This document shows positions 4,176 through 30,305 of a DNA stretch of 64,000 bases, in pieces. Origin of the DNA: Nocardioides seonyuensis (GTDB taxonomy: Bacteria; Actinomycetota; Actinomycetes; Propionibacteriales; Nocardioidaceae); contig NZ_CP038436.1 of NCBI RefSeq assembly GCF_004683965.1, positions 2,604,001 to 2,668,000 of the forward strand, written 5' to 3'. The translations under genes were made by a program, and so were the position numbers. The notes beneath the pieces were generated by a model that saw nothing but the letters and a program-made list of their open reading frames with translations, was not told where the DNA came from and made no database searches. How positions within the stretch are numbered: the first letter of the stretch is position 1; each line of letters starts with the position of its first letter.

Positions 4176-5978
4176 ATGAGTGGCCTCAAGGAGCCCCAGG
4201 AGTTCGAGCCCCAGGAGGGCGCGCTCCGACTGGCCCCCGACGACGACGTGCACGACGCCTCGGCCTGGGAGGCGGCGACCGCCGCGGTCCTGCGCAAGGC
4301 TCGCAGGCTGGGCGAGGACGACCCCGACTCGGCCGTGTGGGAGGCGCTCGCGCGCACGACCCTGGACGGCATCGAGGTCCCCCCGATCGGCCAGGCTGCC
4401 GACCTCGACGGGCGCGTCACCAGCGGGCGACCGGGGCGCGTCGGCGCCTGGGACGTGCGCACACCCCTGGAGGGTGGTGACGCCAAGGAGGTCAACGAGG
4501 CGGCCCTCGTCGACCTGGACAACGGTGCGACCTCGCTCCACCTCGAGCTCGAGCCGGGCACCGACCTGGCGGTCGCGCTGAGGGGCGTCCTGCTCGACCT
4601 CGCCCCGGTGAGCCTGGGCCGACCCGACCCTGAGGTGTCCGAGGCCCTTGCCGCGTTGCTGGACGCAGCCGCCGGCGACCCGCACCCGGCCAACAACCTC
4701 TCCGCCGACCCGGCCACCGCCCAGGCGTTCGGCGACCCCGACGACGCCCGGGCGTCCGAGGAGGCCTTCGTCCGGACCGTTCGTCGCGCCCAGGCCCTGG
4801 GCGTGCTCGGCGGTGTCGTCGACGGCACCGCGCTGCACGACCGCGGGGCCAGCGACGCCCAGGAGCTCGGCTGGACCATGGCCGTGGGCGTCCACTACCT
4901 GCGGCTCCTCACCCGGGCCGGGCTCTCCGTCGACGAGGCCGCCGGCCTGCTGGAGTTCCGTTACGCCGCGACCGACGAGCAGTTCCCGACGATCGCCAAG
5001 CTGCGTGCCGCGCGCCGCCTGTGGGCGCGGGTGCTGGAGGCCTCCGGAGCGGGCCAGGTGCCGCAGCGCCAGCACGTGGTGACCAGTCGCCCGATGATGG
5101 GCAGGTACGACCCCTGGGTCAACATGCTGCGCAGCACGGTCGCCGCCTTCGCTGCGGGGGCCGGCGGCGCCGACGTCGTGACCGTCGTGCCGTTCGACGA
5201 GCGCCTGGGCCGGCCTGACGCCTTCGGCCGCCGCATCGCACGCAACACCTCCTCGCTGCTCATCGAGGAGTCCCACGTGGCCGTGGTCACCGACCCGGCC
5301 GGCGGCTCCTACGCCGTCGAGAGGCTCACCGACGAGCTGGCCGTGGCCGGTTGGGCCGAGCTGGGCCGCATCGAGTCCGACGGAGGGTTCGGCGAGCAGG
5401 CGCTCGCCGGGGTCGAGCAGCGCGTCCAGCAGGTCGTCGACCGGCGCAACGCGGGCATCGCCGACCGCTCGCGGCCCCTCACCGGGATCTCCGAGTTCCC
5501 ACATCTCGGCGAGACGCTGCCCGAGAGGGCGCCCGCGCCGGAGCGCGACGTGCGGCACTACGCGGCGCCCTACGAGCAGATGCGTGCCGAGCCGGCCGAG
5601 CACCCGGTCTTCCTCGCCACCATGGGCTCCATCGCGGCGCACACCGCGCGCGCCACCTTCGTCTCCAACCTGTTCGCCGCGGGCGGGGTGACCGTCGAGG
5701 TGGCCGGTGCCACCGACGGCCCTGACGCGGTCCTCGCGCAGTACGCCGGCCAGCGCGTCGTCTGCCTCGCCGGCACCGACGCCGCCTACGACGAGTGGGG
5801 CGCCGACCTGGTGGCCGCGCTGCGCTCGGCCGGGGCGTCGTACGTCGTCCTGGCGGGCAAGCCGGGCGGGCGCAGCGGGATCGCGGTCGAGGGCGACGAC
5901 GCTGTTGATGATTGGGCTGCCCTGGGGGTGGACGCCCTGGCCTTCCTGGGCCGTATCCGAGAGGAGCTCAGCCGATGA
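4176..5978 (+). CDS. mutA: Methylmalonyl-CoA mutase small (beta) subunit
   Basis: Non-catalytic partner of MutB in the adenosylcobalamin-dependent interconversion of methylmalonyl-CoA and succinyl-CoA. The 600-aa product (family about 610-630) has an N-terminal TIM-barrel-like mutase domain, with YDPWVNMLR and [10 protein letters not shown] typical of the fold, and a C-terminal cobalamin-type domain. The last domain lacks DxHxxG: the corresponding stretch reads [13 protein letters not shown], so cobalamin is not expected to bind here, as is normal for MutA. ATG 4176 is chosen because family similarity starts there and a -10 TATCCT lies 7 nt upstream; the open frame continues upstream without gene-like content. 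The stop overlaps the mutB ATG (ATGA). Confidence 0.95.
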
Positions 5979-8137
5979 GCATTCCCGAGAACTTCGCCGA
6001 GGTGGAGCTGGGTCTCAGGACACCGCTTCGTCCTTCCTCGACCAGCGGTGGCAGTGATGCAGGGGAGTCGTGGCACAGCCCCGAGGGGATCGAGGTCAAG
6101 GCGGCCTACGACGCCGGCGACCTCGACGGCCTGGACGCGCTGGAGACCTGGCCCGGGCTGGCGCCGTTCCTCCGCGGCCCCTACCCGACGATGTACACCA
6201 CCCAGCCGTGGACGATCCGGCAGTACGCCGGCTTCTCCACCGCGGAGGAGTCGAACGCCTTCTACCGCCGCAACCTCGCCGCCGGCCAGAAGGGGCTGAG
6301 CGTCGCCTTCGACCTCGCCACCCACCGCGGCTACGACTCCGACCACCCCAGGGTTCGCGGAGACGTCGGCATGGCGGGCGTGGCGATCGACTCGATCTAC
6401 GACACGCGCACACTGTTCGACGGCATCCCGCTCGACACGATGAGCGTGTCGATGACCATGAACGGCGCCGTGCTGCCGGTCATGGCGCTCTACATCGCGG
6501 CGGCCGAGGAGCAGGGCGTCAAGCCCGAGCAGCTGGCGGGGACCATCCAGAACGACATCCTCAAGGAGTTCATGGTCCGCAACACCTACATCTACCCGCC
6601 CAAGCCGAGCATGCGGATCATCAGCGACATCTTCTCCTACACCTCGCAGAACATGCCGCGCTTCAACTCCATCTCGATCTCCGGCTACCACATGCAGGAG
6701 GCCGGGGCGACGGCCGACCTCGAGCTCGCCTACACGCTCGCCGACGGGGTGGAGTACATCCGTGCGGGGCTCGACGCGGGTCTGACGATCGACCAGTTCG
6801 CCCCGCGGCTGAGCTTCTTCTGGGCCATCGGGATGAACTTCTTCATGGAGGTCGCCAAGATGCGCGCGGCCCGCGCGCTCTGGTCGCGACTGGTCGGGGA
6901 CTTCGACCCGCAGAACCCCAAGTCGCGCTCGCTGCGCACCCACAGCCAGACCTCGGGCTGGTCGCTGACCGCGCAGGACGTCTTCAACAACGTCGGCCGC
7001 ACGTGCATCGAGGCGATGGCCGCCACCCAGGGCCACACGCAGTCGCTGCACACCAACGCCCTCGACGAGGCGATCGCGCTGCCGACCGACTTCTCCGCCC
7101 GCATCGCACGCAACACCCAGCTGCTGCTCCAGCAGGAGAGCCGCACGACCGAGATCATCGACCCCTGGGCGGGCTCCTACTACGTGGAGAAGCTCACCCA
7201 CGACCTCGCCGAGCGTGCGTGGGCGCACATCCAGGAGGCGGAGGCCGCAGGCGGCATGGCCGCCGCCATCGAGCAGGGCATTCCCAAGATGCGCATCGAG
7301 GAGGCGGCCGCCCGCACCCAGGCGCGCATCGACTCCGGTCAGCAGAAGGTCATCGGCGTCAACACCTACCGGCTTCCCGTGGAGGACAAGCTCGACGTCC
7401 TGCGGGTCGACAACGACGACGTCTACCGCCAGCAGGTCGCCAAGCTGGAGCGGCTGCGTGCCGAGCGCGACGACGACGCCGTCGCCGAGGCGCTGGCGGC
7501 GCTGACGGGTGCGGCCGAGAAGGGCACCGGCAACCTGCTCGAGCTCGCGGTCGACGCCGCGCGCGCCAAGGCCACGGTCGGCGAGATCTCCGACGCCATG
7601 GAGAAGCCGTGGGGGCGCCACCAGGCCGTGATCCGTACGATCACCGGCGTGTACCGCGACGAGGCAGGCGCCACCGGGAACGACAAGGTCGCCCAGGTCC
7701 TGCGAGCCACCGAGGAGTTCGAGGCCGAGGAGGGCCGCCGGCCGCGCATCCTCGTCGCCAAGATGGGCCAGGACGGTCACGACCGTGGGCAGAAGGTCGT
7801 GGTGACCGCCTTCGCCGACCTCGGGTTCGACGTCGACGTGGGCCCGCTCTTCTCCACGCCCGAGGAGGTCGCCCAGCAGGCGGTCGACGCCGACGTGCAC
7901 ATCGTCGGCGTCTCGTCGCTGGCAGCCGGCCACCTGACGCTGCTGCCGGCGCTGCGCCGGGCGCTCGCCGACCAGGGCCGCCCCGACATCATGGTCGTCA
8001 TCGGCGGGGTGATCCCGCCCGACGACGTGCCGACGCTGCACGAGATGGGCGCAGCCGCGGTGTTCCTGCCCGGCACGGTCATCGCCGACTCGGCGCTGGA
8101 CCTGCTGGCGCGCCTGCGGGAACAGCACGCCGGCTGA
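5975..8137 (+). CDS. mutB: Methylmalonyl-CoA mutase large (alpha, catalytic) subunit
   Basis: Catalytic B12 subunit converting (R)-methylmalonyl-CoA to succinyl-CoA, linking propionate, odd-chain fatty acid and branched amino acid breakdown to the TCA cycle. The 720-aa length fits the family. The acyl-CoA-binding barrel spans about residues 40-560 ([40 protein letters not shown]). The C-terminal cobalamin domain carries the lower-ligand motif [10 protein letters not shown] near residue 600. Translation is coupled to mutA by an ATGA overlap, and the stop overlaps the meaB start the same way. Residues about 13-26 are encoded by a copy of an interspersed repeat (6010-6051) that occurs inverted in meaB. 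It falls in the poorly conserved N-terminal arm, so function is probably intact. Confidence 0.97.
6010..6051 (-). repeat. Interspersed repeat, copy A, inside the mutB coding region
   Basis: About 40 bp whose reverse strand matches the copy in meaB (8284-8322) at roughly 36 of 39 positions. The shared core on the plus strand reads gacaccgcttcgtccttcct. It is read in frame and adds roughly 14 residues near the MutB N-terminus ([11 protein letters not shown]). The same core appears in diverged form at 28836-28877. The orientation given is relative to the meaB copy. Confidence 0.8.
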
Positions 8138-9153
8138 TGGCCCGTGCCGTGGACGTCGCGGCGCTGGTCGAGGGCATCCGCTCCGGCCGGCGCGCGGCGG
8201 TCTCGCGCGCGATCACCCTCGTGGAGTCGTCGCGTCCCGACCACCGGCAGGCCGCGCGCGAGCTGCTGACCGAGCTCGCCACCCCGGTGGTCGAGGAAGG
8301 ACGAAGCGGTGTCACGAGACCCCTGGCGACCCGCGTCGGCATCTCCGGGGTCCCCGGCGTCGGGAAGTCCACCTTCATCGAGTCGCTCGGCACCCGCCTG
8401 ACCGCCGCGGGGCACCACGTCGGCGTGCTCGCCGTCGACCCGTCGAGCGTCCGGACCGGCGGATCGGTCCTCGGCGACAAGACGCGGATGGCGGCCCTCG
8501 CCACCGATCCCCGTGCCTTCATCCGGCCCTCACCCTCGGCCGGCACCCTCGGCGGCGTCGCACGGGCGACCAGCCAGGCGATGCAGGTCCTCGAGGCGGC
8601 GTCGTACGACGTCGTGCTCGTCGAGACGGTCGGCGTCGGCCAGTCCGAGATCACCGTGGCCGGCATGGTCGACACCTTCCTCTTCCTCACCCTCGCCCGC
8701 ACCGGCGACCAGCTGCAGGGCATCAAGAAGGGCATCCTCGAGATCGCGGACGTGCTCGCGGTCAACAAGGCCGACGAACAGCACGAGGGCGAGGCCCGGG
8801 TCGCGGCGCGCGAGCTCGCCGGGGCACTCCGCCTGGTGCGCGGCAAGGGAGAGTGGGCACCGCCGGTCACGACCTGCTCAGGGCTCACCGGCGACGGTGT
8901 GGACGACGTCTGGGAGCGGGTCCTCGCGCACCGCGAGCACCTCGGCGAGGCGGGGCTGGCCCGCAAGCGCGCCGAGCAGCAGCTCGACTTCACCTGGGCG
9001 CTGGTGCGCGACGAGCTCGACCAACGGTTGAGGTCGTCGGCGGCCGTGGCCGCGATCAGGGACGAGGTGCGGGCCGCGGTGCTGTCGGGCGAGCTGCCCG
9101 CTGCACTGGCCGCCGACCGGATTCTGGAGGCCTACGACTCGCCCAGCAACTAG
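8137..9153 (+). CDS. meaB: MeaB/ArgK-family GTPase, methylmalonyl-CoA mutase chaperone
   Basis: G3E-family GTPase that gates cobalamin loading and protects methylmalonyl-CoA mutase. The 338-aa product has Walker A GVPGVGKST at about residues 70-78, the conserved VDPSS and GSVLGDKTRM segments, ETVGVGQSE, and the guanine-specificity motif NKAD. Its ATG overlaps the mutB stop, so the three genes form one coupled operon. Residues about 50-62 ([13 protein letters not shown]), just before the G domain, are encoded by an interspersed repeat. Compared with remembered homologues such as E. coli YgfD, this makes the link between the N-terminal helix and the P-loop about ten residues longer. Confidence 0.95.
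   Translation: MARAVDVAALVEGIRSGRRAAVSRAITLVESSRPDHRQAARELLTELATPVVEEGRSGVTRPLATRVGISGVPGVGKSTFIESLGTRLTAAGHHVGVLAVDPSSVRTGGSVLGDKTRMAALATDPRAFIRPSPSAGTLGGVARATSQAMQVLEAASYDVVLVETVGVGQSEITVAGMVDTFLFLTLARTGDQLQGIKKGILEIADVLAVNKADEQHEGEARVAARELAGALRLVRGKGEWAPPVTTCSGLTGDGVDDVWERVLAHREHLGEAGLARKRAEQQLDFTWALVRDELDQRLRSSAAVAAIRDEVRAAVLSGELPAALAADRILEAYDSPSN
8284..8322 (+). repeat. Interspersed repeat, copy B, inside the meaB coding region
   Basis: The 39-bp segment is the near-perfect reverse complement of copy A in mutB and similar to the intergenic copy at 28836-28877. It lies entirely in coding sequence and keeps the frame open, supplying residues about 50-62 ahead of the MeaB P-loop. Confidence 0.8.
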
Positions 9154-28397: not shown

Positions 28398-28457
28398 GGA
28401 CTCAGCCTCGCAGGTCGCCGTGGCGCAGTGTCGGTGCTCGGTGCCAGTCTCGGGGAC

Positions 28458-28826
28458 ATGATCGATCACCTGGGAATCAACTGCACCGACATCGAGCGCG
28501 CAGGCGCCTTCTACGACCGGATCCTCGGGGTCCTGGGTCACCGCCGGGTCATGGACTTCGGCACCACCATCGGCTACGGCTCGGAGGAGCCTGACTTCTG
28601 GCTCTCCACCTTCGAGGGCGTCGGCCCCAACCGCGAGGTGCACGTCGCCTTCGCCGCACCCGACGCGGCGACCGTGCGCGCGTGGTACGACGAGGCCATC
28701 GCCGCCGGCGCCGAGTCGCTGCACGAGCCGCGGCTGTGGCCGGAGTACCACGAGCGCTACTTCGGCGCCTTCGTCCGCGACACCGAGGGCAACAACATCG
28801 AGGCGGTCTGTCACTCCGGCGAGTGA
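28458..28826 (+). CDS. VOC-family (glyoxalase/dioxygenase fold) protein
   Basis: A 122-aa single VOC protein: two beta-alpha-beta-beta-beta modules beginning IDHLGINCTDIERAGAFYDR and ending FGAFVRDTEGNNIEAVCH. His near residue 3 and Glu near residue 115 are the usual metal-ligand positions. The family includes glyoxalases, fosfomycin and bleomycin resistance proteins and dioxygenases, so substrate assignment is not possible. ATG 28458 lies 7 nt after CAGTCT. It is monocistronic. Confidence 0.85.
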   Translation: MIDHLGINCTDIERAGAFYDRILGVLGHRRVMDFGTTIGYGSEEPDFWLSTFEGVGPNREVHVAFAAPDAATVRAWYDEAIAAGAESLHEPRLWPEYHERYFGAFVRDTEGNNIEAVCHSGE

Positions 28827-28835
28827 CGGCCTGCA

Positions 28836-28877
28836 TCGGTGATTGAAGAAGGACGAAGTCCTGTCTCGAAACCCCTG
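28836..28877 (+). repeat. Interspersed repeat, copy C (intergenic)
   Basis: About 42 bp between the VOC gene and the DUF222-HNH gene, in the same orientation as copy B in meaB. It shares the core gaaggacgaag and the flanking cggtg and tctcgaaaccc-type ends, but is more diverged. It shows that the element family is also found outside coding sequence. Confidence 0.65.
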
Positions 28878-28934: not shown

Positions 28935-30305
28935 ATGACCAGCATCCAGCAGGACTCCGATCTCGAGGTCGTGGACCTCGCGGACGCGAGCGTGCGTGGC
29001 CTGCTGGAGCAGGCGGCCGAGTGCGAGAGCGTGCTGCGCGAGGTCGCGGTTCACCAGCTGCGGGTCGCCTACGAGTGGGCTGTTGCGCACCCGGTCGTGG
29101 ACGCGGCCGAGACTGCTTGTGGGCCTGTCCTCCCTTCGGTCCTGGAAGCCCCGGAGACGTTGGGTGGCGCCGGCACGCCAGCGGTGGCGGCGTTCACCGC
29201 CGAGCCGCTCGCCGTCGCGTGCGGCATCGCACCCACTGCTGCTTCAGCGCTGCTCGCGGATTCGCTGGATCTCCACCACCGGCTCCCGGTGCTCTGGGAC
29301 CAGACCCAGGCCGGGTTCGTGCCTGCGTGGAAGGCGCGCCGGGTCGCTTCCCGCACCCGTGACCTGTCCCTGGACGCTGCCCTGTGGGTGGACCGGCAGA
29401 CCGCCGGCCGGGTCGGGTCCCTCAGCCTCGGGGCCCTGGACCGGTTGATCGCCGAGGCCGCGGCCCGGGTGGACGGCGAGCCCCTGGCAGAAAAGGAGAA
29501 GCGCGCCCGGCCGCAGTGGGACGTCCAGCTCAAGCACCGCGACCCACGCGAGGGCGGCGCCACCTCAGAGATCCACGCGATCGGCGACACCCTCGACCTG
29601 ACCCGGTTCCACGACATCGTGTGCGCCGAAGCCGAAGCACTCGGGTCCCTGGGTGACGGCGACACCTTCGAGGTCCGCAAGGCCAGGGCCCTCGGTGTCA
29701 TCGCCGACGCGCAGGCCCGGCTCGACCTCACCAGCCTCCTCGACGACACCAGCGACGACGAGCGAGCCGCAGTCCGCCGTCGCCTCATCGAGCGCCGCGA
29801 CGCCAAGGTCCGGCTCTACCTCCACGCCTCCCTCGCGGACGTTGTCGCCGGCACGTCCGGTGCAGTCGGCACGGTCGAAGGCCTCGGCCCGGTCACTCTC
29901 GACCAGATCAAGGACTGGGCCGGCAAGGCCCGCGTCACCATCCAGCCCGTGCTCCACGTCGTGAGTGAGGACACCTGGTCCGTCGATCGCCACGACCCGC
30001 CGCCGCGGATGGCCGAGCATGTCGTCCTCCGCGACCCGATGTGCGTGTTCCCGTGGTGCTCACACCCCTCCAGGCACGCCGACCTCGACCACATCGAGCC
30101 CTACGAGGACCCCGACGAGGGCGGTCCGCCCGACCAGACAAGGCCAGGCAATCTTGCGCCGCTGTGTCGAAGACACCACCGTGCCAAGACAGCAGGCGGC
30201 TGGAGCTACCAGCGCACCGCACCCGGCACCTACCTGTGGACCGGCCCCGCCGGCCTCACCGCCGTCGTCACTCCCACCGGCACGATCACCCTGCCCACGG
30301 CCTGA
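28935..30305 (+). CDS. DUF222 / HNH endonuclease domain protein (13E12-repeat family)
   Basis: A 456-aa protein of the multicopy actinobacterial 13E12 family. A long helical DUF222 region (about 20-330) precedes a C-terminal HNH nuclease-like domain (about 365-430) with CVFPWCSHPSR, the HADLDHIEPY catalytic His pair and NLAPLCRRHHRAKT. Family members are spread through Nocardioides and Mycobacterium genomes, often beside repeats. A repeat copy lies 58 bp upstream here. Whether it acts as a nuclease, a homing-type element or a domesticated protein is not known. The frame is intact. Confidence 0.9.
   Translation: MTSIQQDSDLEVVDLADASVRGLLEQAAECESVLREVAVHQLRVAYEWAVAHPVVDAAETACGPVLPSVLEAPETLGGAGTPAVAAFTAEPLAVACGIAPTAASALLADSLDLHHRLPVLWDQTQAGFVPAWKARRVASRTRDLSLDAALWVDRQTAGRVGSLSLGALDRLIAEAAARVDGEPLAEKEKRARPQWDVQLKHRDPREGGATSEIHAIGDTLDLTRFHDIVCAEAEALGSLGDGDTFEVRKARALGVIADAQARLDLTSLLDDTSDDERAAVRRRLIERRDAKVRLYLHASLADVVAGTSGAVGTVEGLGPVTLDQIKDWAGKARVTIQPVLHVVSEDTWSVDRHDPPPRMAEHVVLRDPMCVFPWCSHPSRHADLDHIEPYEDPDEGGPPDQTRPGNLAPLCRRHHRAKTAGGWSYQRTAPGTYLWTGPAGLTAVVTPTGTITLPTA

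Follow-up and report, generated by a model that had tools for sequence, protein, structure and literature searches.

Methylmalonyl-CoA mutase (MutB) and its associated GTPase MeaB are encoded by neighboring genes, and in Nocardioides seonyuensis each of the two proteins reads, in frame, what appears to be the same short DNA segment, which raises the question of what the segment is, how it came to lie in both genes and how the two copies are related. The window, the whole stretch of 64,000 nucleotides that was analyzed, covers positions 2604001-2668000 of a genome assembled as one contig of 3,974,362 bases. Its two copies form 39-nt arms lying inverted 2235 nt apart, with 36 of 39 positions (92%) complementary (Table 1). 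A sequence-only reading of this DNA had described them as near-perfect reverse complements that keep the frame of both genes; its coordinates, orientation and match count are all correct, and translation of MutB and MeaB agrees on the frame. The MutB copy occupies the linker from the conserved MSIPxNFAEV start to the WHSPEGI motif, and the MeaB copy lies in the coil ahead of the P-loop strand. Conservation of the start peptide ahead of the repeat shows that the mutB copy is genuinely coding. The same reading had suggested that the inverted pair could let the operon segment invert, for which no support was obtained: among 80 stretches from relatives, the mutB and meaB motifs lay on the same strand in 77 and on opposite strands in none, while three stretches did not yield a reading for both. 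Such an inversion would, moreover, disrupt both genes.

Table 1. Repeat copies and genes discussed in the text (window coordinates unless marked as genome coordinates)
Feature	Position	Strand	Description	Basis
Repeat copy in mutB	6010..6048	+	13-residue peptide, MutB residues 13-25	arm comparison and translation
Repeat copy in meaB	8284..8322	-	13-residue peptide, MeaB residues 50-62	arm comparison and translation
Third family copy	28838..28872	-	intergenic, upstream of the 456-aa gene 28935-30305	intact hairpin AGGACTTCGTCCT
mutB	5975..8137	+	methylmalonyl-CoA mutase large subunit	Pfam MM_CoA_mutase and B12-binding
meaB	8137..9153	+	MCM-associated GTPase	Pfam MeaB
Gene downstream of third copy	28935..30305	+	leader type CCTGTGGAAT adjoins the repeat, as in DUF222 units	
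DUF222 paralogues (L022, L027, L029, L030, L057, L039)	genome start/end 287192, 766195, 1022337, 1053323, 3018331, 3702420			

The segments had further been called an interspersed repeat, and a genome search with consensus patterns supports this through copies found genome-wide, the repeat being evidently mobile. A pattern built from the mutB and meaB copies matched 18 places with up to three mismatches, a genome-consensus pattern matched 71, and one that joins both ends through a variable middle matched 75 in the 3.97-Mb genome. The related copy claimed near 28836 proved intergenic by the gene calls on either side (28428-28826 and 28935-30305) and is 73% identical to the mutB copy; the product of the downstream gene gave no Pfam match at E 0.001. 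The family unit is palindromic and about 36 bp long, with constant ends GGTYTCG and CTCRACCASCGR, able to pair at their tips, around a variable inner hairpin in the layout G-GTYTCGWGAC-[hairpin]-TCCTCRACCASCGR. The middles, among them AGGACTTCGTCCT, GGGACTTCGTCCC, ACGACTTCGTCGT, GGTCGCTGCGCGACC and GGGCCTGGCGGCCC, keep the stem through paired changes. Among 46 unique 35-nt copies, Watson-Crick pairing was found at positions 3-29 in 43 (shuffle mean 23.5), at positions 11-23 in 42 (28.0) and at positions 12-22 in 40 (32.3), values reached by none of 2000 shuffles for any pair, the shuffles ignoring kinship among copies. Pair 11-23 varies inside both end types, and the top two column pairs by mutual information are pairing columns. 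A short stem-loop is preserved by compensatory changes.

The exact pattern is present in 96 of 146 Nocardioides genomes (0 to 251 copies each) and, in a sample of 345 genomes from across the class, in 46, with high copy number only within the same family. Head-to-tail arrays of 3-5 copies with a period of 42 to 48 nt were seen in the own genome at 420349-420521, 2428564-2428694, 3651799-3652024 and 3652403-3652563. With respect to the terminal inverted repeats of MITEs, the ends pair over no more than about 4 bp, the flanking G and GR are constant, and no target-site duplication was resolved at the copies compared. An Rfam scan of four loci with E up to 0.1 returned two sub-threshold matches, neither overlapping the repeat. 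Among the matches listed in a literature search that left most subscription journals outside its range, no title or abstract opening described a family of such repeats from Nocardioides or other actinobacteria.

The location of copies was scored against gene calls based on codon usage, the finder having been trained on the 64-kb window, for 88 copies within two substitutions of a loose motif in stretches around the genome matches, a set that excludes 28838-28872 and other weaker copies. Fifty-two were intergenic, 11 overlapped a gene end, and of those lying within genes DUF222 genes contained 11 and other genes 14; since only 25 of 88 fall in coding sequence though the stretches are 88% coding, the copies strongly avoid genes. 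The general remark that mobile repeats seldom end up in coding sequence is nevertheless too strong here, as presence in ordinary genes (14/88) and in DUF222 genes (11/88) is not rare. The 14 in-gene copies lie in 13 genes with Pfam-matching products, namely MutB, MeaB, a Nudix protein, a RecQ-like helicase, a carboxyltransferase, a HAD hydrolase, a biotin carboxylase (two copies), NTP_transf_5, APS kinase, a MiaB-like radical SAM protein, NrdR, a class II ribonucleotide reductase and a PF13941 protein. The coding status of the HAD copy is doubtful because the predicted start falls within the repeat, and the PF13941 and MiaB-like copies are close to N-termini predicted by the gene finder alone. 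Of the 14, ten run in the sense of their gene, with a single reading frame (one 13-residue peptide type) common to eight, and all four antisense copies are in the VEEG frame, a preference that was sought post hoc, after data inspection. The net gain is often below the length of the element, as with nine residues in MeaB (compared with its usual near relative) and a 7-residue gap for the carboxyltransferase copy against structure 4q0g; the alignment of the RecQ-like helicase with 4q47 is too gappy at the copy to judge a gain.

A repeat copy supplies the TGA stop in 12 genes, comprising the 11 gene-end overlaps and copy 642431, which is counted among the 14 in-gene copies as well; one of the genes, at 2902213, is a weak gene call. 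In these genes, examples of which end at 1857540, 2328578, 2356141, 2447148 and 2492346 of the own genome, the stop context is mostly GGTTGA or TCGTGA, and gene and repeat overlap by 9 to 13 nt.

The account that we favor and consider probable is that a REP-like palindromic element, itself non-autonomous, gave rise to both segments; its constant ends would enclose an exchangeable short hairpin. Some mobilizing activity would spread the element, most likely by working on its hairpin in single-stranded form, and copies would survive mostly between genes or across stop codons, while inside genes only in-frame landings in flexible linkers, with presumably neutral peptides, would persist. The mutB N-terminal linker would have been hit repeatedly across the genus, or its resident swapped, and the meaB copy would probably be a sister of the mutB copy, derived by copying within the operon, in whichever direction, or kept similar through conversion between the inverted copies. 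Weighing against this account are the result that neither RAYT nor DUF222 genes fit as mobilizer, the absence of a resolved target-site duplication and the net gains that often fall short of the element.

The MutB linker was surveyed from PxNFAEV to SPEGI in 79 genomes including the own one, L173 and L197 giving no read. A copy was found in 28 of the 79 and, by the criteria used, none in 51; strict patterns recover 26 of the 28 (25 relatives and the own genome), G178 and G093 being accepted by eye and weaker matches in other genomes being scored as none. Ten copies belong to class A (W-GAC), ten to class B (ACAC), seven to class C (GAGGCTCGCTCC) and one to another type, the class of G200 being assigned by eye. 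On a mutB tree computed without the linker, the linker states require 21 changes (200 shuffles: 24-28, mean 26.6), and class among the 27 A, B or C bearers requires 10 (500 shuffles: 9-16, mean 13.0; 11 as low). Presence or absence of the copy changes 13 times, with bearers mixed with non-bearers, and the sister genomes G012 and G022 (99% support) carry class C and class A, respectively. The tree changes and the sister genomes of differing class together indicate repeated occupation or rewriting of the MutB site, though some family signal is present. The earlier suggestion of selection-neutral insertion points fits in so far as the landing is in a tolerated linker; the insertion in MutB recurs across the genus and is not confined to the species. 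As to further variation in MutB, three genomes (L180, L194 and L183) have an extra N-terminal insert, STSRRSQSDLLSTG or a close variant, ahead of IPKNFAEV that may be a repeat copy, and the linker of L224 (MutB of G144) contains several tandem repeat units plus one inverted, adding about 40 residues.

A tentative alternative, possible rather than probable, is that an old element has long resided at the mutB linker and that its inner hairpin was replaced by conversion, from the same genome or another species, with little new insertion. The copies of the bearers share one position and orientation, 22 of 25 machine-scored bearers share one frame and three have another (G092, G101 and the own genome were not machine-scored), and class changed at least ten times among the 27 bearers, all of which would suit replacement in place. 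A second example is PccA, the biotin carboxylase, where site 1 (residues 137-149; 22 loci surveyed, seven giving no read) shows a clean gain of 12 residues, a point for the favored account; of the 15 genus proteins read there, G019 alone has it in common with the own genome. In favor of replacement, the repeat and its flanks at this site are identical between the own genome and G019 at 61 of 62 consecutive nucleotides (L310, L311), against 68-87% per 100-column block in the surroundings of pccA, and the loop CAGCA occurs at no further copy among those listed for six genomes. The 51 genomes scored without a copy, intermixed with bearers on the tree, argue against an old resident, as does the restriction of the MeaB and PccA gains to few lineages. 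PccA site 2 (residues 326-338) looks recurrent too, on account of differing repeat-like inserts in L313, L316, L319 and L331, and the pccA stop codon lies inside a third repeat copy. A more far-reaching idea, which seems rather unlikely to us, is that the linker sites in mutB, meaB and pccA act as docking points at which hairpin subtypes are swapped within and between species through very short conversion tracts, with no dedicated transposase; if true, a selfish repeat would be steadily rewriting enzyme linkers across the genus.

With repeated insertion or swapping of the element still the favored reading, the relation of the meaB copy to the mutB copy turns on the middle. The middle ACCGCTTCGTCCT, which breaks the inner stem, occurs in two of 88 copies, those of mutB and meaB, and its absence from the other 86 suggests that the two are probably sisters, that is, copies of each other. 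Among 70 copies, the nearest to the mutB copy is the meaB copy (three differences; the next has five), and the nearest to the meaB copy is the mutB copy tied with two intergenic consensus-type copies at three differences each; in a cross-species ranking by likeness to the meaB copy, the mutB copy is level with the one in MutB of G022. Given these ties, it is the shared three-base middle that carries the sister claim. In the clade of the own genome, G220 and G184 (support 99), the repeat is in both genes of the first two and, by the criteria used, in neither gene of G184; as the G220 copies lack ACCGCTTCGTCCT, copying or conversion later than the split may have created or preserved the likeness of the own pair. 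G093 has three tandem units in mutB and in meaB that are mutual best matches. One sister origin for all mutB/meaB pairs was rejected, the copies of G220 and G101 not being mutual best matches. Local copying as a general rule was likewise rejected, as five variants of a distance test found no excess likeness among close copies; without DUF222 units and without collapsing, the test leaned the opposite way (in 1964 of 2000 permutations the mean did not exceed the observed one).

The MeaB site was read from RELL to VGISG in 80 genomes (79 relatives and the own one; L223 gave no read). The commonest segment resembles RELLTELAATERPMATRVG, and the own segment, with 28 residues, is nine longer than this form and ten longer than the solved structure 3nxs. 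Clear repeats are present in five of the 80, namely the own genome and G220 (same class), G101 and G093 (other classes) and G199, whose short form is the least certain of the five; strict patterns recover those of G220, G101 and the own genome. L208 and L209 show doubtful traces of a repeat. Alignment with relatives thus bears out the earlier expectation of residues missing from near species for MeaB, where most lack them, and not for MutB, whose site is filled in 28 of 79. In an AlphaFold2 model of MeaB (27 sequences, mean pLDDT 84.2), residues 52-59 fall below pLDDT 50, and the insert is predicted to form a coil between helix 34-48 and strand 65-71.

It is improbable that the repeats are retained for a function, such as an mRNA hairpin that tunes the mut operon or a contact between MCM and MeaB. 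Two partner proteins with like copies, in the own genome and in G093, and the frame preference of in-gene copies (8/10 same-sense, 4/4 antisense) would be in keeping with one, yet most of the relatives read at these sites lack repeats, the same repeat occurs in unrelated genes, the inner stem is broken in both own copies and the MeaB segment is predicted to be disordered.

Mobilization by DUF222/HNH genes of the 13E12 type is highly improbable as well. Six such genes in the own genome hold 11 copies within their coding sequence, with more copies upstream beside a conserved leader, whereas across 146 genomes, mostly scored on 14 candidates per genome, the two numbers diverge: G029 has 102 copies and one DUF222 match, G114 198 and one, and G097 84 and none, and G018, G036 and G126 have no repeat copy yet at least 14 matches each. 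DUF222 was rejected as mobilizer since copy number does not track it. The in-CDS copies of the paralogues sit at similar places, their upstream leader is of the type CCTGTGGAATGG, and the window gene 28935-30305 is similar upstream. The Y1_Tnp/RAYT domain (PF01797) was searched for too and found neither in the own genome nor in any of the 146 Nocardioides genomes, with 5 of 14 controls positive. Chance likeness of GC-rich coding sequence, which has nothing on its side beyond the low complexity of such DNA, is refuted by the reversed versions of all three patterns, which match no place in the whole genome, and by the strict patterns, which have no match in 328,182 nt of the remainder of the same mutB genes.

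For annotators, the favored account of a repeatedly inserted element means that these linker peptides are repeat-derived, and one gene followed through 79 species with several subtypes forms a natural series that allows a direct test of repeat movement and protein tolerance.

Among known systems, REPs with a GTAG or CGTC tag are described as 20-40 bp hairpins that are mostly intergenic or near gene ends, with some in frame in genes (PMC3733652, 2013), and the Nocardioides repeat resembles them as a short hairpin that is mostly intergenic and in some cases in frame. In contrast to these REPs, it belongs to an actinobacterial host and has the ends GGTYTCG/CTCRACCASCGR (70 copies), with neither GTAG nor CGTC constant, and no RAYT was found; many copies nevertheless begin with G[CG]TGG on the other strand, and GTGG is reported in one REP family (PMC3733652). 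According to the same article, two Xanthomonas species have REPs of differing kinds in recB at nearly one position, and its main text contains no occurrence of Actinobacteria, Streptomyces, Mycobacterium, Frankia or Nocardio. REPINs are described as inverted REP pairs linked to RAYT genes (PMC3116915, 2011). The Nocardioides repeats are likewise dispersed hairpins that also occur in clusters; unlike REPINs, many copies are single or head-to-tail, and a RAYT was found in 0 of 146 genomes.

As with CGTC REPs and RPEs, in-frame copies do occur inside genes, here 14 copies in 13 Pfam-matched genes with the HAD one doubtful. The RPE hosts, Rickettsia, belong to another phylum than Nocardioides, and the small dispersed repeats, with cyanobacterial cases among them, come from other hosts again. 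RPEs are palindromic and in frame in protein genes, like the Nocardioides repeat (PMC3733652); the small dispersed repeats, which are named in PMC3116915, are very small dispersed hairpins like it. Since in-gene REPs and RPEs are known (PMC3733652), the in-gene phenomenon is not new. What is new is an untagged actinobacterial family with a coding hot spot and subtype turnover, a REP-like family that, with no RAYT found, yet enters the coding sequence of core enzymes.
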